In this document: positions 1,988-27,220 of the stretch, piece after piece
Layout: each line of letters begins with the position of its first letter
How positions within the stretch are numbered: the first letter of the stretch is position 1
IMG/VR virus record: IMGVR_UViG_3300037258_000230
Span: 1 to 28,921 of that record
Origin: a virus
Strand: one strand, 5' to 3'
Length of the DNA stretch: 28,921 nucleotides
Made by a program: the position numbers and the translations under genes
The notes under the pieces: model-generated
Seen by the model: the letters and a program-made list of their open reading frames with translations, nothing else
What the model was told of the DNA's origin: nothing
Database searches by the model: none

Positions 1988-2200
1988 ATGGCAAAGCAGA
2001 AAAGAATCTATCGCAAAACCTATCGCAAACCTTACATGCCGACCCCCGAACAAATCAGGCAGTCTTGCCTGGAAATCCAGGCGGGCTGGACGGCGGAGGA
2101 AGAAAGAGAACGACGCGGCTGCCTGACGCCCTATCAATGCGGCAAACATCGGACCCCTAAAGTCACAATCCGTTCAGGGGCATCAGCGGGAGGTCAATAA
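1988..2200 (+). CDS. Small basic hypothetical protein, 70 aa
   Basis: The N-terminus is strongly basic (AKQKRIYRKTYRKPY). It is followed by PTPEQIRQSCLEIQAGW and then an Arg/Glu-rich helix. The middle resembles a short phage motif of the kind PTPEEI..AC..IR..W, which I associate with small proteins of unknown role. No ribosome binding site is visible before the ATG; a TATAAT lies just upstream. The stop overlaps the start of the large fibre gene (TAATG), so it may act as the translational leader of that gene. A nucleic-acid contact is plausible from the charge only. Confidence 0.55.
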   Translation: MAKQKRIYRKTYRKPYMPTPEQIRQSCLEIQAGWTAEEERERRGCLTPYQCGKHRTPKVTIRSGASAGGQ

Positions 2201-4881
2201 TGACCTCTCAAGGTCCAAACTATCCAGGAACCGTTACCGAATTAGCCGACGGATCACGTACCTGGACCAATCCCAATAACATCAAAGTTTCGGACGGCAC
2301 TTTTGCGACCGTCCAAGACGACTCAAATTCCGACACTCTCGAAGCCACAAACTTTGGCTTCTCGATTCCCAGCACGGCGACCATTACGGGTATCACTGTC
2401 GAAATCAATCGCAAGGCAGGCGAATCGGGCAGTTTTACGTCGAATGATAGTTTCGTTAATCTTATCAAGGGTGGGTCGATCAGCGGCAGTAGTCTGGGAT
2501 CGGGGACTGCTTGGAGCACAAGTGCGACAACGGCAACCTATGGCAGTTCGTCCAACCTATGGGGTTTATCTCTTACTTACGCCGACGTGAATGCGTCCAA
2601 TTTTGGGGTGGCGTTTGCGGTTAATGGTGCGGGACGCGGCGGTAGTCACGTTGATAGCGTTGACTTTGTGCGGATCACGGTCGCCTATTCGTTGCCATCG
2701 GCGGCAGACTCAGCTTATGAGGCTCCTGTCTCTGGCACGATGACCCTAACGCCAAGCAGTATCAACCTGTATGGTAACAATGCCAAATATGGCGGTTGGC
2801 GTTTTGAGAATATCCAAATGCCCAATGGGGCGTCGGTTGTTTCCTGCTCCATCACTCTGCACGTCACGACGAACTCAACCGATGGCAGCACCGAGTTTAA
2901 TATCTACTTTGATTCAGCGGCGAACGCGGCGGCATTTTCCTCAACAGCCTCAGACATCAGCAACCGAACGCTGAGCGGTCCCGTTGTGTGGAGCGGTCTC
3001 AACACAGGCACAGGATTGAGGACAACGCCTGACCTCTCCTCCATTGTCCCGAACGGTGGAAGCTGGGCCAAAGGAAATGCGATGTCCGTCATTTTTTCGC
3101 AGACGGCCCCAGCCTTTGACTACATCGTCGATAACGCGACAACGGTTCCTGTGCTTAACCTGAAATGGACGGTCACAAGGGACTCGCAAACCCCGACCGA
3201 CTGGTCAGGCAATATCGCAGCCGATGCAGTTGATCCTTTGGAATGGCCCCAAGGGGTCGTCAAAGATGTGGTCACGCCGTCCGAATGGACCTCGACCCTT
3301 AACAAAGACAGCATCGAACCGACCGACTGGGAAGCCAGCCTAAACGCCGATTCCGTCGAACCCCTGGATTGGTTCGCCAACATCACTTCGTCAGATTCGG
3401 TCTTGCCTCTGGAATGGCCCCAGGGCGTTGCTGGTGACTCTGTGTTGCCAACCGAATGGCCCCAGGGCGTGGCAGCCGATTCGCTCATAACGACCGAATG
3501 GCGGGGCAACCTCAACGCGGATCAAATCCTAACAACCGATTGGCTGTTGGACCTGTTGACGGATGCCGAGATTCCCCTGGATTGGATCAACCCGACGTTG
3601 GCAGGTGATAGCCTCTTTGCCATCGCATGGCCTTCGTCCCTGAACTCAGACCAAATCATCGACCTCGCTTGGCAGGATACGCGGGTTCCGATCTTTGTTG
3701 ACTGCGGCTTTCCTCTGAGTCTGCTCCAAGGTGCTCAGACGGATAACGACGTTCCCATTGAATGGCTGGGCGTCGTCATCATTGACACCATCGACACGAT
3801 GGCGATTGCCTGGACCCAAGGCGTCCTAAGAGACATGGCCGATGCAACCGACTGGTTGGCGTCGGTTCGCCGAGACTCTGTATTCCCGACCCTCTGGGGC
3901 GGTCCTTTGTACGTGGATTCGGTCATTCCGTTAGCTTGGCCCAACCCCATCGTCATGAGGGACGCCAGTATTCCCATTGCCTGGGCAGGCAGCCTCAGAC
4001 GGGATCAGGTGATTCCAACCGATTGGAAAAACGACCTGATGACCTCTAAGACGATCCCAACCGAATGGTTGGCCTCGATCAACAAAGATTCCAGCATTCC
4101 CGCCGACTGGATCAGTCCCGTATTGCGTGATTGCATCCTGACAACCGCATGGACCCAGGGCGTTCGCCAAGATTCCGTCTTGGTCACAGAATGGACCCAG
4201 GGCGTCCGTAATAACTCTGTAACAACAACCGATTGGCTAACGACCATTCATGTCGATAAAAGCCTTCCCGTTGAATGGGTGGGGTCTGCGGCGGCAACCT
4301 TAGATGCGGACATCCCCATTGAATGGCGGCTGAATCTTATTAAGGACTCAAATGAGGTCATAGAATGGCCCCAGGGCGTTCGCACAGACAACGTTGTAAC
4401 AATGGATTGGCCCCAGGGCGTTCGCAGAGATCAGGTCTTGCCGACCGAATGGCCTGGGATACTCAACAGGGATTCTGTTATTCCTATTGAATATCTCAAG
4501 ACGGTGCAGCTTGATTGTATAACTCCCATAGACTTTCAAGCCAAAATCGTGTCTAATGTCACTATTCCCACAGAATGGGTCGGGGCCATAACTTATAGTC
4601 CGATCATCCCTGTGGAATGGCGAGCCAACATCCTTGTTGATGAGGCGATGCCCGTTGAATGGTTCGGTGATGTCGTGAGCTATAACGCTACGATCCCGAC
4701 CGACTGGACATTAACCGTCAGACATGACGGGATCATCCCCACAGAATGGTTGGTTCAACAGCCCGCTTACATCGATGGCGGCGTATTTGTGTTAGGGAAA
4801 CGCGGAACTGTTTGGGAATGTCCCAACAGAGGCGTGATGTTGGTAGTGGAAAAACGCGGAACCGTTTGGGTTTTGGAATAA
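2200..4881 (+). CDS. Large repeat-containing tail fibre / adhesin-like protein, 893 aa
   Basis: Three parts are visible. Residues 1-165 look like a beta-sandwich domain, ending in HVDSVDFVRITVAYS, typical of phage receptor-binding or carbohydrate-binding modules. Residues 170-325 look like a second beta domain. From about residue 330 to 852 there are about 36 tandem units of roughly 14 residues around a core of the form (I/L)P(T/I/L)(E/D)W followed by six to eight residues ending in D, such as LPTEWPQGVAAD. The C-terminus has two KRGTVW strands. Repeats of this kind could make an elongated stalk with exposed tryptophans. The position after small leader genes and before a fibre-adaptor-like gene supports a tail or virion-surface role. 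No enzyme motif is seen. Confidence 0.7.
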   Translation: MTSQGPNYPGTVTELADGSRTWTNPNNIKVSDGTFATVQDDSNSDTLEATNFGFSIPSTATITGITVEINRKAGESGSFTSNDSFVNLIKGGSISGSSLGSGTAWSTSATTATYGSSSNLWGLSLTYADVNASNFGVAFAVNGAGRGGSHVDSVDFVRITVAYSLPSAADSAYEAPVSGTMTLTPSSINLYGNNAKYGGWRFENIQMPNGASVVSCSITLHVTTNSTDGSTEFNIYFDSAANAAAFSSTASDISNRTLSGPVVWSGLNTGTGLRTTPDLSSIVPNGGSWAKGNAMSVIFSQTAPAFDYIVDNATTVPVLNLKWTVTRDSQTPTDWSGNIAADAVDPLEWPQGVVKDVVTPSEWTSTLNKDSIEPTDWEASLNADSVEPLDWFANITSSDSVLPLEWPQGVAGDSVLPTEWPQGVAADSLITTEWRGNLNADQILTTDWLLDLLTDAEIPLDWINPTLAGDSLFAIAWPSSLNSDQIIDLAWQDTRVPIFVDCGFPLSLLQGAQTDNDVPIEWLGVVIIDTIDTMAIAWTQGVLRDMADATDWLASVRRDSVFPTLWGGPLYVDSVIPLAWPNPIVMRDASIPIAWAGSLRRDQVIPTDWKNDLMTSKTIPTEWLASINKDSSIPADWISPVLRDCILTTAWTQGVRQDSVLVTEWTQGVRNNSVTTTDWLTTIHVDKSLPVEWVGSAAATLDADIPIEWRLNLIKDSNEVIEWPQGVRTDNVVTMDWPQGVRRDQVLPTEWPGILNRDSVIPIEYLKTVQLDCITPIDFQAKIVSNVTIPTEWVGAITYSPIIPVEWRANILVDEAMPVEWFGDVVSYNATIPTDWTLTVRHDGIIPTEWLVQQPAYIDGGVFVLGKRGTVWECPNRGVMLVVEKRGTVWVLE
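3190..4752 (+). repeat. Tandem coding repeats (about 36 x ~42 bp) in the fibre gene
   Basis: Each unit encodes about 14 residues with a near-invariant Trp preceded by Glu, Asp or Ala. A few units are nearly identical at DNA level (TGGCCCCAGGGCGT recurs in several), while most have diverged. Longer units occur around 3670-3790. This mix of old and recent copies suggests repeat gain and loss by recombination. Confidence 0.75.
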
Positions 4882-5015
4882 GGAACACAAGGGGCTGCCC
4901 ACAAGGCAGCCATGAGGCACAAGAAGGAGTAGCTACCTTCTGAGATGCCATGAACATCGAGCCTTTCATGGGGGCTGCGTGATGCAGCCCCTTTTTATTT
5001 GCACGAAAGGCTTAG
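4882..5015 (+). promoter_or_regulatory. Structured 5' leader with nested terminator and hidden ribosome binding site
   Basis: Four helices can be drawn. GGCTGCC (4893-4899) pairs with GGCAGCC (4905-4911). AGAAGG (4922-4927) pairs with CCTTCT (4936-4941), flanked by GGCA and TGCC. GGGGCTGC (4971-4978) pairs with GCAGCCCC (4984-4991) and is followed by five T. An outer stem AGCCTTTC (4960-4967) pairs with GAAAGGCT (5005-5012), which contains the Shine-Dalgarno sequence of the ATG at 5016. GGGGCTGC also occurs at 4891-4898, so the 3' arm at 4984 could pair with either copy, as in a switch. A matching element precedes the gene at 18197. Confidence 0.6.
4971..4996 (+). terminator. Intrinsic-terminator-like hairpin before 5016
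   Basis: A perfect 8-bp GC-rich stem (GGGGCTGC/GCAGCCCC, 5-base loop) is followed by TTTTTATTT. It ends the fibre gene's transcript or, because it sits inside the leader of the next gene, protects or gates that gene. Confidence 0.7.
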
Positions 5016-5780
5016 ATGTCAGTAGCAACAACGGATTTGATTTGGTACGGCTCGGCGAACATGGATGAAGCTGATGGCTCAACGCAAGGCGGGGCCATCG
5101 ATGCAACGGTAAGAGTAATTCCCGATTCATCCTCCCTCTTTAACGCCCTCTCAAACGGCAAGGTTGACATTGTTTCTAGTAACTCTGGGGACAACAGCCA
5201 AACCGTAACTATCTATGGGCGGAACGCCTCTGGATCGATTGTCAGCGAAGCTCTTTCCTTGAACGGAACAACGACCGTCAACGGAACGCTGACTTATGAC
5301 CGTCTCGAAAAGATCGTCATTTCAGCAAGCCACACAGGAACAGTCACGGTCACGGCTCACACAGGCGGCACAACGATTGTCGCCATCGAGTCAGGCGTCA
5401 CGACGATTCGCCGACCCTTCTACAACATTTCGGCGGACGTTGGGGCTGGTTCAAGCAGAACCTATTACGAGAAGTTCTTTCTCAAGAACACAAACGGCAC
5501 AAATGCCCTTCTTGGTGCTCAAATCATCCTCCAGGCTGACCCATCCTCTGTGATGTCGTTTGCCCTGGATTCTGCGGTCAATGGAACAACGACCTCGACG
5601 AACCGTCAAACGGCCCCAGCATCGGGAACAGGATCATTCAGCACATCGGCCAAGAACGTTCCAGGAACCGACCTCGCGGCGGGTGACAAGGTTGGCGTTT
5701 GGTGGAGCTTGACCCTCGCGGCGGGAACGGCGGCGACTAAGACCACATTTACGGCAAGGGTTAGCGGGAGCACGACCTAA
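5016..5780 (+). CDS. Beta-rich virion structural protein, 254 aa
   Basis: The protein is rich in Thr, Ser, Gly, Val and Ala with alternating hydrophobic strands and no enzyme motif, as expected of Ig-like or jelly-roll virion proteins. Residues 1-125 look like one beta domain. Residues 135-254, after an RPFYNI segment, look like a second, with a TYYEKFFLKNTN strand that recalls neck, fibre or tail-surface proteins. The gene has a long structured leader and a good GAAAGG ribosome binding site that can be sequestered, suggesting high, controlled late expression. It overlaps the next gene by one base. The exact virion position is unknown. Confidence 0.6.
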   Translation: MSVATTDLIWYGSANMDEADGSTQGGAIDATVRVIPDSSSLFNALSNGKVDIVSSNSGDNSQTVTIYGRNASGSIVSEALSLNGTTTVNGTLTYDRLEKIVISASHTGTVTVTAHTGGTTIVAIESGVTTIRRPFYNISADVGAGSSRTYYEKFFLKNTNGTNALLGAQIILQADPSSVMSFALDSAVNGTTTSTNRQTAPASGTGSFSTSAKNVPGTDLAAGDKVGVWWSLTLAAGTAATKTTFTARVSGSTT

Positions 5781-12025: not shown

Positions 12026-12303
12026 GAGATTTGGAAAATGCCTTGCTCCATCGGGCCGAGTTCGGCCCTATCGGCGAGGTCTTGAAATTGGTTCAGAACG
12101 AATTGGAATCCTTGCACGCGAACTTCGCGGCCTTGGAAGAGCGGTTGGATAAGTTGGCCCCTTGTGAGGCTCAGAAGATCGGCAACGTCACAATGTCTCG
12201 GTTAGCAGAGACAGCAGCCGTGACCAACACAGCCGTTCTGCCGAATCATGAGGACGCGGTTGATTCCTTAGAACACATCCCACATATCAACCTCCATGAC
12301 TAA
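12016..12303 (+). CDS. Small helical protein, 95 aa
   Basis: The ATG follows GGAAAGGAAGACAGG. Residues 1-50 are helical with leucine heptads (LKLVQNELESLHANFAALEERL). The C-terminal half is Ala/Thr-rich and ends HINLHD. A second assembly helper beside the capsid is plausible, but no family is recognised. Its final codons and the first bases after its stop (12288-12309) recur exactly at 27170-27191, where they end another small gene in the same frame. Confidence 0.6.
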   Translation: MSLRDLENALLHRAEFGPIGEVLKLVQNELESLHANFAALEERLDKLAPCEAQKIGNVTMSRLAETAAVTNTAVLPNHEDAVDSLEHIPHINLHD

Positions 12304-12309
12304 CATCTA

Positions 12310-12411: not shown

Positions 12412-12469
12412 ATGCGGCGAAGTCATCCCGAACCAAAAAACGTTCGGGGGCTTTGCCGCATTTCTTTTT
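12412..12469 (+). terminator. Two-tier terminator-like hairpin before the capsid gene
   Basis: The outer stem is ATGCGGC (12412-12418) with GCCGCAT (12455-12461). The inner stem is CCCGAAC (12427-12433) with GTTCGGG (12442-12448). TTTCTTTTT follows at once. It lies only about 40 bases before the capsid ATG, so it could separate capsid expression from the upstream operon or mark an RNA end. Confidence 0.6.
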
Positions 12470-12480
12470 GATGCCCCAGG

Positions 12481-12504
12481 GTCTCCGACCAATCACACGG
12501 AGAC
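12481..12504 (+). promoter_or_regulatory. Hairpin covering the capsid ribosome binding site
   Basis: GTCTCC (12481-12486) pairs perfectly with GGAGAC (12499-12504), which contains the GGAG binding site of the capsid ATG at 12508. Its stability is modest (6 bp, 12-base loop), so it may tune rather than block translation. Confidence 0.45.
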
Positions 12505-12507
12505 TCA

Positions 12508-13896
12508 ATGGGAAAAGACATTCTTGAATTGCGGGCGGACTGGGAACACAAGGTCCGTTCGGCAGAGGACATTAGCAATCGGGCCGAAAAGGAAGATCGG
12601 CTCTTAACCAAGGAAGACGAAAACCATATCAATGGTTTTCTCAAAGAAGCCAAAGACCTTGAGGATGAAATCAAGGCACTTGAGGAGCAAGACGCCCTCA
12701 AGAACAAGCTGAAGGGCGAACTGTCTAAGGTTCGTCAACCTGGGGCAAGAGTTACCCCTCCTCAACAGCCCAATGAAACCCCATCGGCGGGCAAGTCTCG
12801 CGTTGAGGTCGTTTCGGGTCGCTATTCCACACTCAAGGCGTTCAAGGGGCCGAATGCCGAACTCAACGCCTACGTCTCAGGGCAATGGCTGCGGGCCAAT
12901 TTCCTGGGTGACTATAAGGCGTCCCGTTGGTGCCGTGAGCATGGATACGATGTTCGCACCATTCACGCGGCCCAGGGCGAAAACGTCAATACGGCGGGTG
13001 GAAACCTCGTTCCAGAGGAATTTGCCAACACCATCATTACCCTTCGTGAGACTTACGGTGTGTTTCGTCGGGAATGCAAAGTAACCCCGATGGGACGCGA
13101 CCTGATGCACATTCCGCGTCGTGCGGGCGGCTTGACGGCATACTGGGTTGCGGAAAACCCCGCCACAGGCATTACCGAGTCTGACAAGGTTTGGGATCAG
13201 GTCCAGTTGATTGCCAAGAAATTGGGAATCTTGACCCTGATGTCTACGGAAATCGCAGAGGATGCGATTATCAACCTCGCGGACGACATCGCGGACGAAA
13301 TGGCCTATACGTTCGCCAAGACTGAGGATACGGCGGGCTTCTCTGGTGATGGAACCTCGACCTACGGGGGAATCACAGGCGTCCTGACCAAGTTCAACAA
13401 CAACACTTCTTATAAGGGGGCGGTTGCGGCTGCCTCTGGACATAACAAGTTCAGCGATTTTACTTATACCGACGTTACCAGCATGATGGCGGCTCTGCCG
13501 CAGTATGCTCATGAGGGAGCGAAGTTCTACTGTTCGCAAGCCTTCTTTGACGCGACCTTCAGCCGATTGGCGGTGACGGCTGGCGGTAACACCAACCAGA
13601 CGGTGACGGGTGAATACAAGCCCTCCTTCAGCGGTTATGAAATCGTAACCTCACAGGTGTTTCCGCTTGACCCGACCGTCAGCAACGCCAGCAAGGCGGT
13701 TTGTTTGTTCGGTCGCCTCGATAAAGCAGCCCTGATGGGTGAGCGTCGGGGCATTCAGGTGATGCGATCCGATGACCGTTACTTTGAGCTTGACCAAATC
13801 GGCCTCAAGGCGACGGAGCGAATTGACATCAACGTTCACGACGTTGGAGACACCAGCGGGGCTGGCCCAATCGTGGCTTTGATGGGCACGACCTGA
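12508..13896 (+). CDS. Major capsid protein, HK97 fold
   Basis: The 462-residue protein starts with a charged coiled coil (residues about 1-80, including EDLEDEIKALEEQ in essence), matching the delta domain that scaffolds HK97 proheads and is removed by the protease. The mature part follows a Gly-Asn-rich stretch near NTAGGNLVPEEF. It contains the N-arm/E-loop/P-domain pattern (GLTAYWVAENPA, then VQLIAKKLGILTLMSTEIAEDA) and ends in A-domain strands near TERIDINVHDVG. The gene has its own leader with a terminator-like hairpin and a hidden ribosome binding site, and is followed by another strong hairpin, consistent with very high expression of a separate mRNA. Confidence 0.95.
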   Translation: MGKDILELRADWEHKVRSAEDISNRAEKEDRLLTKEDENHINGFLKEAKDLEDEIKALEEQDALKNKLKGELSKVRQPGARVTPPQQPNETPSAGKSRVEVVSGRYSTLKAFKGPNAELNAYVSGQWLRANFLGDYKASRWCREHGYDVRTIHAAQGENVNTAGGNLVPEEFANTIITLRETYGVFRRECKVTPMGRDLMHIPRRAGGLTAYWVAENPATGITESDKVWDQVQLIAKKLGILTLMSTEIAEDAIINLADDIADEMAYTFAKTEDTAGFSGDGTSTYGGITGVLTKFNNNTSYKGAVAAASGHNKFSDFTYTDVTSMMAALPQYAHEGAKFYCSQAFFDATFSRLAVTAGGNTNQTVTGEYKPSFSGYEIVTSQVFPLDPTVSNASKAVCLFGRLDKAALMGERRGIQVMRSDDRYFELDQIGLKATERIDINVHDVGDTSGAGPIVALMGTT

Positions 13897-18097: not shown

Positions 18098-18196
18098 AGC
18101 ATAGGGCAGGCTGTGATTAGCTAACTCGGCCTGTGCATCGCAGACCTTTCTTGGGGGTTGCTACGGCGACCCCTTTTTTATTTGAGAAAGGTTTGG
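18098..18196 (+). promoter_or_regulatory. Second copy of the nested terminator / hidden-RBS leader
   Basis: An outer stem CAGACCTTTC (18141-18150) pairs with GAAAGGTTTG (18186-18195), which includes the ribosome binding site of the ATG at 18197. Inside it sits GGGGTTGC (18154-18161) with GCGACCCC (18166-18173), closed by a C(TACG)G tetraloop and followed by six T and ATTTG. Order, spacing and T-tract match the leader of the 5016 gene, while the outer pair changed from G-C to A-T on both sides, which is compensatory. An extra CAGGC...GCCTG pairing lies upstream. Confidence 0.6.
18154..18179 (+). terminator. Intrinsic-terminator-like hairpin before the tail tube gene
   Basis: An 8-bp stem with one G-U pair and a stable C(UACG)G tetraloop is followed by TTTTTTA. 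It would end or process the connector operon transcript 18 bases before the tail tube ATG. Confidence 0.7.
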
Positions 18197-18622
18197 ATGT
18201 CTAAACTTAGTTGCATTGGAACCGTCCTCCAACAAAAGATTTCGGGGACGTATACGGCGGTCGCCCAGGTTATCAGCATTTCTTCGAGTGGTCGGGGGGA
18301 TGAAACCTTTGATGCGACCTGCCTCGATTCGGCTGCGGATAACAATAGTGTTGTCTGGAAAGAGAAAGCCAATACGGGGGCTGTCGAGCCTGGAAAAGTG
18401 TCTTTTGAGCTTTTCTTAGACCCGACCTTGAGCGGCCATCAAGCGATTGCTGGGCAACTCGGTCAGGGGAATACCGATTGGAAGGTCATTTACGCCAATA
18501 CCGAAGGGGTCTCAGACCTCTTTACGTCTGCGGGCATTCAATACGGCGTTGATGTGAAAATGGGTGACGGTCTCAAGATGTCCGTTGATTTGGACCTCAC
18601 AGGAGCGGTCACACAGTTTTAA
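18197..18622 (+). CDS. Major tail tube protein
   Basis: The 141-residue protein begins SKLSCIGTVLQQKISGTYTAVAQVISI and continues with GRGDETFDATCLDS, then EPGKVSFELFLDPTLSGHQAI. This is the usual tail tube series: N-terminal strand, loop, and a strand/helix unit that stacks rings. ATG 18197 is chosen because it follows GAAAGG; an in-frame upstream ATG at 18158 lies within the leader hairpin. The special leader suggests strong, regulated expression, as needed for the most abundant tail protein. Confidence 0.8.
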   Translation: MSKLSCIGTVLQQKISGTYTAVAQVISISSSGRGDETFDATCLDSAADNNSVVWKEKANTGAVEPGKVSFELFLDPTLSGHQAIAGQLGQGNTDWKVIYANTEGVSDLFTSAGIQYGVDVKMGDGLKMSVDLDLTGAVTQF

Positions 18623-19693: not shown

Positions 19694-21287
19694 TAACATT
19701 CTGAAAATTGCGGCCCCCATCGGGCTGGCGTTCGGCTTCGAGCACGTCCTTTCGGCGGCGGGGGAACAAATCAGAGCAGAGAAAAAGCTCGATAGCGTTC
19801 TCAGGTCCACAGGCAACGCGGCGGGGCTGTCCTCTAAGGAAATCAAGGACTACGCGGCGGAACTGCAAAAGGCGACCAATTTCTCAGACGAGCAAACCAT
19901 CGCGGGGGCGTCGGTCCTTGCGACCTTCACGCAAATCAAAGGCGTGAACTTCAAGGAAGCCATCGCGTCGGCTCAAGACCTGTCCACCATCATGGGGCAA
20001 GACCTTCAATCCTCTGTCGTGCAAATCGGCAAGGCGTTGAACGATCCGATCAAAGGCGTCACGGCTCTTCGTCGTGTCGGCGTTTCGTTCACACAGCAGC
20101 AGCTTGCCCAAATCAAGGCGATGACTCAGGCGGGCAATGTCGCAGGAGCCCAAAAACTCATTCTCAAAGAGTTGCAAACGGAATTTGGCGGGGCGGCAAA
20201 GGCTCTAGCTTCGCCGATCACACAAGCCAAGAACATGGCGAACGACCTCGCCGAAAACCTGGGAATGGTTCTTGGCCCAGCCCTCAAAGAAATCGCGGGG
20301 GGGTTTTCCGACCTGATCGGCCCAACCGCAGAAGGACGGGAATCGTTCAAGGTGTTTGGCTCGATGTTGGCGGAACTGGCAAAGTTCTTGCGGCCATTTC
20401 CTGGGGCAGTTCTTGGACCTCTGGGAACAGGATTCTTAGAGACGGCCCAGTTGGTCGAGGGCGTGTTTCGCGGAGCATCGGTGTCAGTCCAGGACTTCTG
20501 CAACATAGCGGTCAAAGGACTGTATGACATTCATTTGAGCCTGACCAATCTGGTTCCCCAGATTCAAGGTCCAGTTGAGCAAATGGGCAAAAACATCGCC
20601 TCGATGTGGGCGGGGATTTCAACCATCTTCAACAAAACGCCTCTGTTGGACAAGCTCGACGAATTTGAGACACGATTCGGCAGACGAGCAGACCTTGGAA
20701 ACAAAAAGGACTTGGCGGCGGCTGGTTTCTCAGACAAGGAAACCAGCACGATGTTGGCCTCCGCAAAGAAGGGGGGCAACTGGACTACGATTCTCAGTCG
20801 GGCGACCGATCAATTGAGCGGCGGTGTTGGTGATGAGTTCTCCAAAGCATTTACCGACATGGACAAGAACATAGAGGACGGCCTGAAGGATTCTGGGGGA
20901 ATGAGAAACCTGATCCAACAACAGCGAAAGAGGATCGGGGACAACGTAGCAGCGGCGTTGGCAAAACTGCCAACATCGGTCTTCGCTCCAAAGAGCGGCA
21001 AAGAGATTCCAGGAATGAAAAATCCCAGCCTCAACCCGCCCATGACGGACACCAAAAAGAAACAAGAACATCAAGAGAAATTGACGGCGGAGCTTCGCGG
21101 TAGCAAGGAAGACCTGTCTTCCATCGTGGAGCGATTGACAGGTCACGGCAAAGGTCAGCAACAGCAGCAGATTGCAAAAGCGACTCAACAGACCGCTCAA
21201 CAATCGGTTCAACAGACAAAGATTTTGACAAAGATTCAGGAGGAGCTTGAAGAAGACGAAGTGTTTGACCTCCTTGCGGGGGTGTAA
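19593..21287 (+). CDS. Tail length tape measure protein, 564 aa
   Basis: The protein is long, mostly helical and Ala/Gln/Lys-rich, with hydrophobic patches near the start (ILKIAAPIGLAFGFEHVLSAA). A conserved early tape measure segment follows at residues about 65-200: LDSVLRSTGNAAGLSSKEIKDY, then VGVSFTQQQLAQIKAM in sequence. It sets tail length and is probably ejected during infection. At 564 residues it predicts a fairly short tail for a siphovirus. It follows the chaperone frameshift product as in lambda. ATG 19593 has AGGAG 11 bases upstream; ATG 19602 is an alternative. Bases 20748-20777 recur exactly at 27191-27220. Confidence 0.9.
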   Translation: MAAMGDLVAGIKLQSAPFLAGMKQVQSQTSSFVSNILKIAAPIGLAFGFEHVLSAAGEQIRAEKKLDSVLRSTGNAAGLSSKEIKDYAAELQKATNFSDEQTIAGASVLATFTQIKGVNFKEAIASAQDLSTIMGQDLQSSVVQIGKALNDPIKGVTALRRVGVSFTQQQLAQIKAMTQAGNVAGAQKLILKELQTEFGGAAKALASPITQAKNMANDLAENLGMVLGPALKEIAGGFSDLIGPTAEGRESFKVFGSMLAELAKFLRPFPGAVLGPLGTGFLETAQLVEGVFRGASVSVQDFCNIAVKGLYDIHLSLTNLVPQIQGPVEQMGKNIASMWAGISTIFNKTPLLDKLDEFETRFGRRADLGNKKDLAAAGFSDKETSTMLASAKKGGNWTTILSRATDQLSGGVGDEFSKAFTDMDKNIEDGLKDSGGMRNLIQQQRKRIGDNVAAALAKLPTSVFAPKSGKEIPGMKNPSLNPPMTDTKKKQEHQEKLTAELRGSKEDLSSIVERLTGHGKGQQQQQIAKATQQTAQQSVQQTKILTKIQEELEEDEVFDLLAGV

Positions 21288-22231: not shown

Positions 22232-23494
22232 ATGGCGAACGAACAGCAAAAAAGCGGAAAGATCACAGAGAACTCGGCGAGAGAACTTTCGCAGGTTGTG
22301 AAATGGTATCGCTCTTTGCCAAAGGGCACGGTTGGCGTTCCAAAACAACCTTCCAAGGCTGCCACAAAAGGCGGACCTTGGCTCGGTGTGACTCAACAAG
22401 ACATACCATCAGGATCATCGGGCAACGTTAACTATTGGTCGGGGACCAAAGGTTCCGAGACCGATTCAGGTGTCACGGTGTCTGTTTATTCTCGCAACGT
22501 CACAGTTAAAAATGCGACGTTCATCGTCTTTGATTATCTGGACGCGGGCTTAGAGATTATCCTGCCCACAACGGGCATTTCCCAAAATCCAGCCTATGGC
22601 AGTGGGATTTGTCCTTGCTCCTGCATCACAGGCGAGTCAGCAACCTATTGGCAAATCACGGCTCAATATCAACCTGTGGTTGGTCTCAACTGGCCTTTGC
22701 AGAATTGCTGCGGATCGTCGGACACGCCCCATGACGTTCTGTTTCCTCTGAGTTCGGGTGTGTGGCAATCCAACCCGTTCGCCTGTAAAGCCAAGGACAA
22801 CACAGTTCAACAGGTTCGCTGGAATCTGGCGAGCGATGAAAGCGGATTTCTCAACCTCACTCTGACGGTTGGGACGGGCAGCAATCAAACCCAGGTCCAA
22901 TATCGGGTCAAGGATTATTCGTCGGTTTGCTCCAACACTATCAGCCTGTGGGAACCTCTCAGCGTTCCTGGGGGATCGTCCTGCTTCCTGCCGTGTCAAT
23001 TATGCCTCATTCCAATTCAGCAGTTCTATTGCTCAATGTGTCCTCAAGGTTCGGTCGTGGCAAATGCCACCTTCACGACGCCTGCCGATTTCACGGCTAG
23101 CATGAACAGTCAGACTTACAATCTCGGTGTCTTCGCAACCACAGGGGACAGCCCGCCTGCCCAGACCTCTGGTTGCCAATGGTCTCTCACAGGCGTCCCA
23201 GGAGCAAACAACACCAAGGCGAAAATTGTTCTCGATATGAAAGGCAAGGTTGGTGATCCTGCCAGCAACTCGGCGATGACCATCACAATGTCCTTAGGAC
23301 TGCCTGGGGCGGCTTGGTCCCAGTTCGAGGGCCAACCAACTATTGTGTTCTCGGCTCTGTACGCCAAATGCGACGGCCTGACGACGTTCGCTCCTCTCTC
23401 CGCGAGCAACTGGCCGAACATCGCGAACAGCAACCCGACGTTTCCAACAGATTGGAACCTCGCGGTCACAATGGGAATTACGGTGATTCACTAA
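22232..23494 (+). CDS. Cysteine-rich tail protein A, 420 aa
   Basis: The N-terminal segment ITENSARELSQVVKWYRSLP, followed by GPWLGVTQQDI and then GSETDSGVTVSVYSRN, is closely mirrored in the next gene. The middle has several cysteine pairs (CPCSC, NCC, CFLPCQLCLIP, CSMCP) suggesting bound metal or disulfides, and the rest is beta-rich. It is probably a tail-tip or receptor-binding component. The start ATG lies two bases after the previous stop with no clear ribosome binding site, so coupled translation is likely. Family not recognised. Confidence 0.65.
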   Translation: MANEQQKSGKITENSARELSQVVKWYRSLPKGTVGVPKQPSKAATKGGPWLGVTQQDIPSGSSGNVNYWSGTKGSETDSGVTVSVYSRNVTVKNATFIVFDYLDAGLEIILPTTGISQNPAYGSGICPCSCITGESATYWQITAQYQPVVGLNWPLQNCCGSSDTPHDVLFPLSSGVWQSNPFACKAKDNTVQQVRWNLASDESGFLNLTLTVGTGSNQTQVQYRVKDYSSVCSNTISLWEPLSVPGGSSCFLPCQLCLIPIQQFYCSMCPQGSVVANATFTTPADFTASMNSQTYNLGVFATTGDSPPAQTSGCQWSLTGVPGANNTKAKIVLDMKGKVGDPASNSAMTITMSLGLPGAAWSQFEGQPTIVFSALYAKCDGLTTFAPLSASNWPNIANSNPTFPTDWNLAVTMGITVIH

Positions 23495-24714
23495 TGGACA
23501 GCAAGGGACGCATCACAGAAGGATCAGCCAGAGAACTCGGCAAGCTGGTCAAATGGTATCGAGGACTGCCTCGCAACAAGGCTGGCAAGGCGGTTGCTCC
23601 CCAAGTCATCGACGATCATGGACCTTGGCTGGGTGTGGCTCAAGCGGACATCCTCGCGAGGCAGTCTGGTCCTGTCAATTTCTGGACTGGACCCAAAGGT
23701 CAGGAGACCGATTCAGGTGTCACAGTCCAGGTCTATTGTCGATTTTCAAATCTTTCGACCGAAGGCGGAATTAACAACGGCGAACAGATTTACTTCTATG
23801 CGGTCGATGGCGGTTATGAGGCGTTGCGACAAGATTCCTATGTCACAGTCGGCCCTAATCCACAGACGCCCTGCATAACAAACCGCCAAACTCAAAACGT
23901 TTTGGCTTGCGGTCAATGCTCCCCGATTGCGGTTCCTTTGACGACCTGTTCGCAAAAAACCAAAGTAAGTTCAAGTTACGTTTTGACCGATTGGGGCGGC
24001 AGCCTAAATCTGACCGACTGTTGTGCTTCCTTTGCAGGTTCCAAAACGGCGTTGAATTATGTGTCAGGTTGTACCTGGGAAACAGCAACGTTTGCCTGTG
24101 GGTCTGCGACGGCGACGAAGTGGCAACTTGTGATTGGTGATACTTACACAACTCTAACTTGGCTGATTGACGATAATCATTCGGTACTATATCAAGCACG
24201 AACCGATGAGTTCTCATCCGTCTGCGGCGGATCACTAAAGCTCATTTCTCCCAAGACTCCCCAAACCTGTTCGATGCCTTGTTATGTCTGTGTTTTGCCT
24301 ATTATTGTCAGTAATTACTGCAACAGTTGCACAACCCCGCCTCCGCAGGTGTGGACGGTCTCGTTCAACAACTATAGTCCCGTTGCGGGAACTTATGACG
24401 TTCCCGCAATCACGACTCTCCAAGTCAACACGAGTTGTTTTTGGCAATTGGACAATGTCAATGTTGTCAGCAATGATTTTTTGTCAGATATTACAATTAC
24501 ATCAGGCGGCGAAGGACAGATTACAGTGTTTGTCCATCACCATCAATCAGGATCAGGTCAGACAGGCGACCTATTTGACGATCCGCCCAATAGCTTCGGA
24601 CACGGTCCATTCACCTGCGTCGGAGGCGAAAATGGTATTCCGTGGGCAAATGGTTGGAGTTCCATTTGGCATACTATGTATCCGCAATCGACGGTTAATC
24701 TGTCCCCAGGATAA
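23494..24714 (+). CDS. Cysteine-rich tail protein B, paralog of A, 406 aa
   Basis: It starts at the ATG overlapping the previous stop; a longer in-frame start at 23314 would run deep into gene A and is rejected. It shares with A the segments ITEGSARELGKLVKWYRGLP, GPWLGVAQADI, then GQETDSGVTVQVYCR, and the cysteine block CSMPCYVCVLP. The shared N-terminus probably docks both proteins on the same tail site, while the middle and C-terminal regions differ, ending in a His/Gly-rich domain (FVHHHQSGSGQTGD). A tandem duplication followed by divergence is the simplest origin. Confidence 0.65.
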   Translation: MDSKGRITEGSARELGKLVKWYRGLPRNKAGKAVAPQVIDDHGPWLGVAQADILARQSGPVNFWTGPKGQETDSGVTVQVYCRFSNLSTEGGINNGEQIYFYAVDGGYEALRQDSYVTVGPNPQTPCITNRQTQNVLACGQCSPIAVPLTTCSQKTKVSSSYVLTDWGGSLNLTDCCASFAGSKTALNYVSGCTWETATFACGSATATKWQLVIGDTYTTLTWLIDDNHSVLYQARTDEFSSVCGGSLKLISPKTPQTCSMPCYVCVLPIIVSNYCNSCTTPPPQVWTVSFNNYSPVAGTYDVPAITTLQVNTSCFWQLDNVNVVSNDFLSDITITSGGEGQITVFVHHHQSGSGQTGDLFDDPPNSFGHGPFTCVGGENGIPWANGWSSIWHTMYPQSTVNLSPG

Positions 24715-27051: not shown

Positions 27052-27185
27052 GAACGACTAAAGGAAGGGCGAATAAGGTGGATAAGGTAGCGGGAACGTG
27101 GCAACGCGAGAAGGCAGACCTTGCTAATGTAGTTGCGAAAGCAATCAAGCGGTGCAAAACCTCCGAAGCCAACCTCCATGACTAA
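27048..27185 (+). CDS. Small basic protein, 45 aa
   Basis: The ATG overlaps the previous stop and follows AAGG. The product starts MRTTKGRANKVDKVAG, is lysine-rich, and ends with the helix LANVVAKAIKRCKTSEANLHD. Its start matches that of the 27606 gene at DNA level. Its last four codons, stop and following bases are identical to the end of the 12016-12303 gene, so the gene may be chimeric. Function unknown. Confidence 0.5.
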   Translation: MRTTKGRANKVDKVAGTWQREKADLANVVAKAIKRCKTSEANLHD

Positions 27186-27220
27186 CATCTACGATGTTGG
27201 CCTCCGCAAAGAAGGGGGGC
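27170..27220 (+). repeat. Mosaic junction of two phage segments
   Basis: Bases 27170-27191 equal 12288-12309 (22 of 22) and bases 27191-27220 equal 20748-20777 (30 of 30); the blocks share one base. The join creates a perfect inverted repeat AACATC-TAC-GATGTT centred on it. Confidence 0.85.

Follow-up and report, generated by a model that had tools for sequence, protein, structure and literature searches.

Terminator-like hairpins combined with SD-hiding stems in the leaders of capsid and tail genes of a phage with a probable planctomycete host: a possible lock on read-through transcripts

Introduction

The silencing of abundant, self-assembling phage proteins is well studied at the level of promoters and antitermination and less so for RNA structure at virion genes. 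In the leader of T4 gene e, occlusion of the SD sequence on long transcripts cuts synthesis about 100-fold, and the gene is released by late promoters located within the upstream strand region (PMC3014915). For sigG of B. subtilis, a large hairpin has been proposed that blocks translation of read-through transcripts from the upstream operon and that transcripts from the sigG promoter cannot form (PMC5942855). Among phages, stem-loop terminators delimit the late gene clusters of SPP1 (PMC6316719), and a strong terminator has been mapped behind the capsid gene of LUZ100 (PMC10134795). Each layer is therefore already known on its own, SD occlusion on long transcripts from T4 and sigG and terminators at late-gene borders from SPP1 and HK97. 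In the part of the literature covered, we found no description of a terminator nested with SD occlusion or of the recurrence of such an arrangement at virion genes.

Here, we analyzed a complete IMG/VR virus record of 28,921 bases (the window). An initial annotation, made from the letters alone, had placed a terminator hairpin nested in a stem that hides the ribosome binding site ahead of two genes of this record. We report that the structural claim stands and is broader than stated. The leader elements and the three genes behind them lie on the + strand of the window.

Results

The phage and its structural genes

The window carries siphophage-type structural genes, namely those for a large terminase, portal, ClpP-like protease, HK97-type capsid, connector, tail tube and tape measure. 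Because its terminase matches proteins on two Planctomycetota MAG contigs (52% and 39% identity), the host is probably a planctomycete. The annotated phage collection contained no near relative of the window. The gene at 5016-5780 encodes a 254-aa protein and adjoins a fibre-tail adaptor-like gene (Gp77 family). Its product has no Pfam match and only weak PHROG matches of unknown function; it is predicted to be mostly beta in a low-confidence AlphaFold model, which was discarded as too poor in quality for use. The HK97-type major capsid protein gene occupies 12508-13896 (phrog_10, E 1e-53), and the gene for a lambda-type tail tube protein (TTP) occupies 18197-18622.

Repeats were also observed in this record. 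The tail protein gene at 2200-4881 contains many degenerate coding repeats, often 42 nt apart (GAATGGCCCCAGGGCGT units). At 22232-24714, two adjacent genes have repeated DNA segments in common (e.g., 22427/23674 and 22457/23704), which suggests a tandem gene duplication. The stretch at 27170-27220 is built from exact copies of two remote places: 22 nt are identical to 12288-12309, which precedes the capsid leader, and 30 nt to 20748-20777, within the tape measure gene. These copies may reflect recombination, a shared regulatory sequence or an assembly artefact.

Two nested modules are predicted to hide the SD sequences of gene 5016 and the tail tube gene

Both sites are as first described. The modules, at 4960-5018 and 18141-18199, each consist of a terminator-like hairpin and its U-tract enclosed by a stem that pairs the SD, CCTTTC with GAAAGG, the latter being the SD itself a few bases before the ATG. 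In module 1, RNA folding places the 5′ arm of the outer stem at 4960-4967 (AGCCTTTC), followed by a hairpin of 9-10 bp at 4970-4992, a U-rich tract at about 4992-5000 and the 3′ arm at 5005-5012 (GAAAGGCT), which holds the SD of gene 5016 (ATG at 5016); opening this SD, as scored, costs 12.1 kcal/mol. Module 2 has its 5′ arm at 18141-18150 (CAGACCTTTC), its hairpin at 18153-18174, the U-tract TTTTTTATTT at 18174-18183 and its 3′ arm at 18186-18195 (GAAAGGTTTG) with the tail tube SD (ATG at 18197), for which the opening cost is 13.1 kcal/mol. In sequence, the inner hairpins look like intrinsic terminators, with G+C-rich stems of 9-10 bp and a U-rich tract at once after them (TTTTTATTT and TTTTTTATTT), and the same is true of the capsid leader at 12412-12469. 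The SD is paired with upstream leader sequence in the window leaders, in the manner of T4 gene e, and in longer folds the start codon region also pairs with an upstream CATC. No Rfam family matched the window at its gathering score. A scan limited to promoters of the sigma-70 type found none inside the leaders, and the stretch that separates U-tract and SD leaves too little room for a promoter.

The combined pattern of outer arm, terminator and SD occurs exactly twice in the window, compared with 0.00 occurrences expected from dinucleotide shuffles, and the two hairpins top the list of terminator-like sites for the first 20 kb. The folding check that had been suggested for the modules returned the nested structure as both MFE and centroid with RNAfold, in the two window copies (z -4.9 for module 1 and -6.8 for module 2) as well as in two relatives (z -4.5 and -4.0). 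These relatives are contigs from metagenome 3300037258 and keep the module at the same two genes: L002 carries it before a tube gene whose protein is 82% identical to that of the window, and L005 before a 5016 homologue with 93% identity. The more distant tube relatives L003 and L004 (48% identity) are without the module. A leader peptide was rejected as an explanation of module 1, across which an ATG...TGA frame is broken in L005 by a one-base shift.

Across the four copies, none of the core outer pairs (the first seven) and none of the nine inner pairs is broken, which bears out the conserved pairing deduced from the two window copies. Three base pairs, one outer and two inner, have changed on both sides. 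The outer one lies just outside CCTTTC/GAAAGG and is G-C in the 5016 leaders and A-U in the tube leaders; the compensatory change of this closing pair is thus a true double change, and it represents one evolutionary event because the split follows the two paralogous leaders. The two inner pairs covary as C-G/U-A and U-A/U.G/C-G. A covariance model (R2), a check that the initial annotation had suggested, was built from the module copies on an alignment in which parts of two rows are shifted by one base. It matched the four known copies strongly, and these were its only strong matches among the loci examined; 392 Planctomycetota genomes yielded weak matches only, and those inspected resembled terminators but had no convincing SD stem. 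Therefore, judging from these searches, the specific module seems to be confined to this phage group.

Hairpins upstream of the modules

Directly after the stop codon of gene 2200-4881 stands a hairpin, GGCTGCC/GGCAGCC (4893-4911), whose 5′ side is the repeat GGGGCTGC (4891-4898) that had been offered as an alternative pairing partner. The repeat is present and could instead pair with GCAGCCCC (4984-4991), the 3′ arm of the terminator, but it sits in this hairpin of its own, which is kept in L005 with one G-U change and has no counterpart in either tube leader. An antiterminator role for the repeat was rejected on these grounds, as the mutually exclusive partner is not conserved.

A second hairpin, AGAAGG-(AGUAGCUA)-CCUUCU at 4922-4941, displays the conserved loop motif UAGCUA, and RNA folding gives an upstream hairpin in the tube leader at 18106-18134 with UAGCUAAC in its loop. 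The sequence TAGCTA(A/C)CT is common to all four module copies, a few tens of nt upstream of CCTTTC and in a hairpin loop, and the stem of the hairpin has changed on both sides in L005 (GCAGG/CCTGC). UAGCUA is a 6-nt palindrome and could permit loop-loop contacts or protein binding.

A third leader precedes the major capsid gene

Although the two leaders initially annotated are both real, the inventory was incomplete, since it left out the UAGCUA hairpins and the capsid leader at 12508. The latter shares the logic of the two modules without nesting: a large terminator-like hairpin (12412-12461) with TTTCTTTTT (12461-12469) comes first, and a separate 9-bp stem, GGGTCTCCG/CGGAGACTC (12479-12506), covers the capsid SD downstream. 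The UAGCUA motif is absent from this leader. Only genes 5016, 12508 and 18197, among the 31 window genes scored, have a terminator-like hairpin within 150 nt upstream, and all three belong to the six genes with an SD opening cost of at least 7 kcal/mol. The SD is thus hidden in 3/3 genes with a terminator-like leader compared with 3/28 others (Fisher p 0.004). When the leaders were shuffled with the ribosome binding site kept, both features arose jointly in 0% (5016), 2% (tube) and 0.3% (capsid) of cases. The proposed link of the modules to abundant virion proteins holds for the tail tube and is strengthened by the capsid leader; the 5016 product, with the matches described above, is at most a candidate for an abundant protein.

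Capsid leaders of relatives

A strong terminator-like hairpin with a 7-10-bp SD-covering stem after it was also found in the capsid leaders of two Planctomycetota genomes (L012 and L019) and one viral contig (L044), whose capsid proteins are roughly 23-35% identical to that of the window. These leaders have no evident sequence in common with the window, and both features occur jointly in 0-0.7% of their shuffled versions. The layout is partial in L013 and L043. The L043 leader has the SD stem and no scored terminator. L013 was not counted: its SD is paired in the MFE structure in most contexts, but the opening cost of 4.8 kcal/mol is reached in 64% of shuffles. In L003 and L045, the hairpin is strong and the SD is not clearly hidden by score. 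Most of the more distant planctomycete prophage capsid genes show neither a terminator-like hairpin nor a hidden SD; therefore, the trait belongs to a phage group and not to the phylum. We also observed very long terminator-like hairpins, far beyond what termination needs, in the capsid leaders of L012 (4790-4870) and L003 (4965-5065).

Recurrence of the nested design and control phages

To see whether the design exists outside this phage group, we searched IMG/VR for the nested layout built on another SD (CTCCTT ... CCCCTTTTT ... AAGGAG), and a scrambled 5′ arm, CTTCTC, served as the control. The design was recovered in 30 contigs compared with 2 for the scrambled arm; many of the 30 are homologous, and about 11 families were counted. 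In at least three unrelated families, a true terminator hairpin is nested in an SD stem before the ATG. These precede gp11-like tail tube genes that immediately follow the capsid gene in T7-like phages (L061, L063, L075-L077 and L081), a gene with an RyR domain that lies among structural genes (L065, L069, L074 and L080) and a gene for a 475-aa product of unknown function (L066 and L067). Other families have an SD stem without a G+C-rich hairpin. A perfect SD-hiding stem of the CTCCTTAA/TTAAGGAG type, with no G+C-rich hairpin inside, stands before a 105-aa phrog_3982 gene in L055, L058, L068, L071, L078 and L079.

In a control survey of 180 annotated genes from HK97, HK022, lambda, phiC31, T7 and two Firmicutes phages, 16 genes had a terminator-like hairpin, 15 had a hidden SD and 2 had both. 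One of these two is the major tail gene of HK97 (gene 12), at which the HK97 record annotates a putative terminator. At lambda E, HK022 gene 12 and T7 gene 11, a terminator hairpin lies just upstream of the SD without strong occlusion. Both features were present in 8/176 planctomycete-phage genes, a count that includes homologous pairs, compared with 2/180 control genes (p 0.06), a contrast that we regard as suggestive.

Discussion

After weighing these data, we provide a putative mechanism in which each leader acts as a lock with two layers and silences its virion gene on RNA that has read through; we favor it tentatively and would place it a little short of an even chance. In the first layer, the predicted intrinsic terminator would halt most RNA polymerase arriving from upstream. 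In the second, on RNA that reads through, the SD of a nested module pairs with the arm upstream of the terminator, and the capsid SD with an arm immediately downstream of its terminator; the ribosome would thereby be excluded. The pairing is computed for all three leaders, and the block on translation would be its consequence. Such a lock would prevent the synthesis of abundant, self-assembling capsid and tail proteins from transcripts that are early, leaky or of the prophage state. It would have to be bypassed late in infection, by an antitermination-type or RNA-binding factor, by RNA cleavage between the arms or by a transcript that starts downstream of the 5′ arm. Since the scan recognised no promoter in the leaders and too little space separates U-tract and SD to hold one, opening would call for cleavage or for a factor acting by RNA binding or antitermination.

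Several results count in favor of the lock. Both modules are far above chance, fold as described and are kept at the same genes in relatives, with double-sided changes and intact core pairs; added to this are the third leader at the capsid gene, the coincidence of the two features within the window, the leaders of L012, L019 and L044, the recurrence in IMG/VR and the precedents of T4 gene e and sigG. As the same design recurs in unrelated viruses, it looks like a genuine double lock, placed on the genes for coat and tail, and not like a product of chance. Other results count against it. Should the stems never be opened, translation would be poorest for precisely the most abundant proteins. T7-like phages have the design before a gene that is probably of low copy, and therefore the design may simply lower expression. 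Moreover, the leaders gave no sigma-70 promoter match, and in many distant Planctomycetota prophages the capsid gene shows neither feature. We treat the timing-switch function first suggested for the leaders, and the coupling of RNA 3′ ends with translation, as hypotheses.

The stems could instead form a translational operator, in which a protein of phage or host origin (possibly the virion protein), a small RNA or the UAGCUA hairpin opens the SD stem to provide feedback or stoichiometry and the terminator hairpin is mainly a scaffold. The UAGCUA-loop hairpin, conserved upstream of both nested modules and in both relatives, would suit this role, as would the conservation of stems and not of sequence. 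However, the motif is missing from the capsid leader, the capsid leaders of relatives offer no common sequence for protein recognition, and no ligand or partner is known; we consider an operator unlikely. RNA processing would explain a hidden SD together with high late expression. RNA folding gives each module a helix of ~17-19 bp with an asymmetric U-rich internal loop, and an RNase III-like enzyme might cut this long irregular duplex, separate the virion-gene mRNA from the upstream one, remove the 5′ arm and free the SD. Nevertheless, the SD stem in the capsid leaders is separate and only 7-10 bp long, and the U-tracts suit terminators better, which makes processing or stability rather unlikely as the main role.

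Expression trimming, in which the terminator and a weak SD set relative protein amounts within one late operon without any switch, appears quite unlikely as the main role. In the window, the genes behind the design include those for capsid and tube, proteins that siphophages need in hundreds of copies. Trimming has its best case in T7-like phages, which have the design between the capsid gene and gp11; in LUZ100 and T7, a strong terminator directly follows the capsid gene (PMC10134795), and the T7-like design may lower expression of the gene behind the capsid gene, matching the LUZ100 terminator. Chance, meaning a terminator and then an SD that happens to have a complement upstream, is hardly credible and is largely excluded for the nested modules by the zero expectation in shuffles, the conservation with compensatory changes and the 30 versus 2 contigs in the scrambled-arm scan, even though lambda, HK97, HK022 and T7 have terminators just upstream of virion genes without strong SD hiding.

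Beyond the two-layer lock in this phage, we speculate that a widespread and unnamed class of phage leader exists, a "read-through lock", in which a terminator nested in or followed by an SD-hiding stem has evolved repeatedly at virion genes, ties termination to a block on translation and is opened by a late phage factor. A class of this breadth is possible but doubtful. A compact leader that both terminates and hides, recurring in unrelated phages, is a directly testable control element, and its design would be a ready-made insulator for gene circuits built in laboratory strains.

In combining a transcriptional and a translational layer in one leader, the window resembles attenuators and riboswitches with a terminator and SD control; unlike them, it has no Rfam match and no conserved aptamer-like core beyond the UAGCUA hairpin. 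In common with HK97, HK022, lambda, SPP1 and T7/LUZ100, it has a terminator-like hairpin bordering capsid or major tail genes, whereas those phages lack a strong stem around terminator and SD, the SD of HK97 gene 12 (major tail) being moderately hidden with an opening cost of 7.5 kcal/mol. sigG differs in being a cellular gene whose own promoter excludes the hairpin, and the available portion of its report mentions no nested terminator. The stem of T4 gene e encloses no terminator, and its upstream strand region holds late promoters, whereas the window has a terminator hairpin nested in or preceding the stem and no such promoter was seen. Like the leaders of T4 genes e, soc, 49 and I-TevI, the window leaders place the SD or start region in a helix formed only on transcription from upstream, and they may likewise keep a phage gene silent until late.
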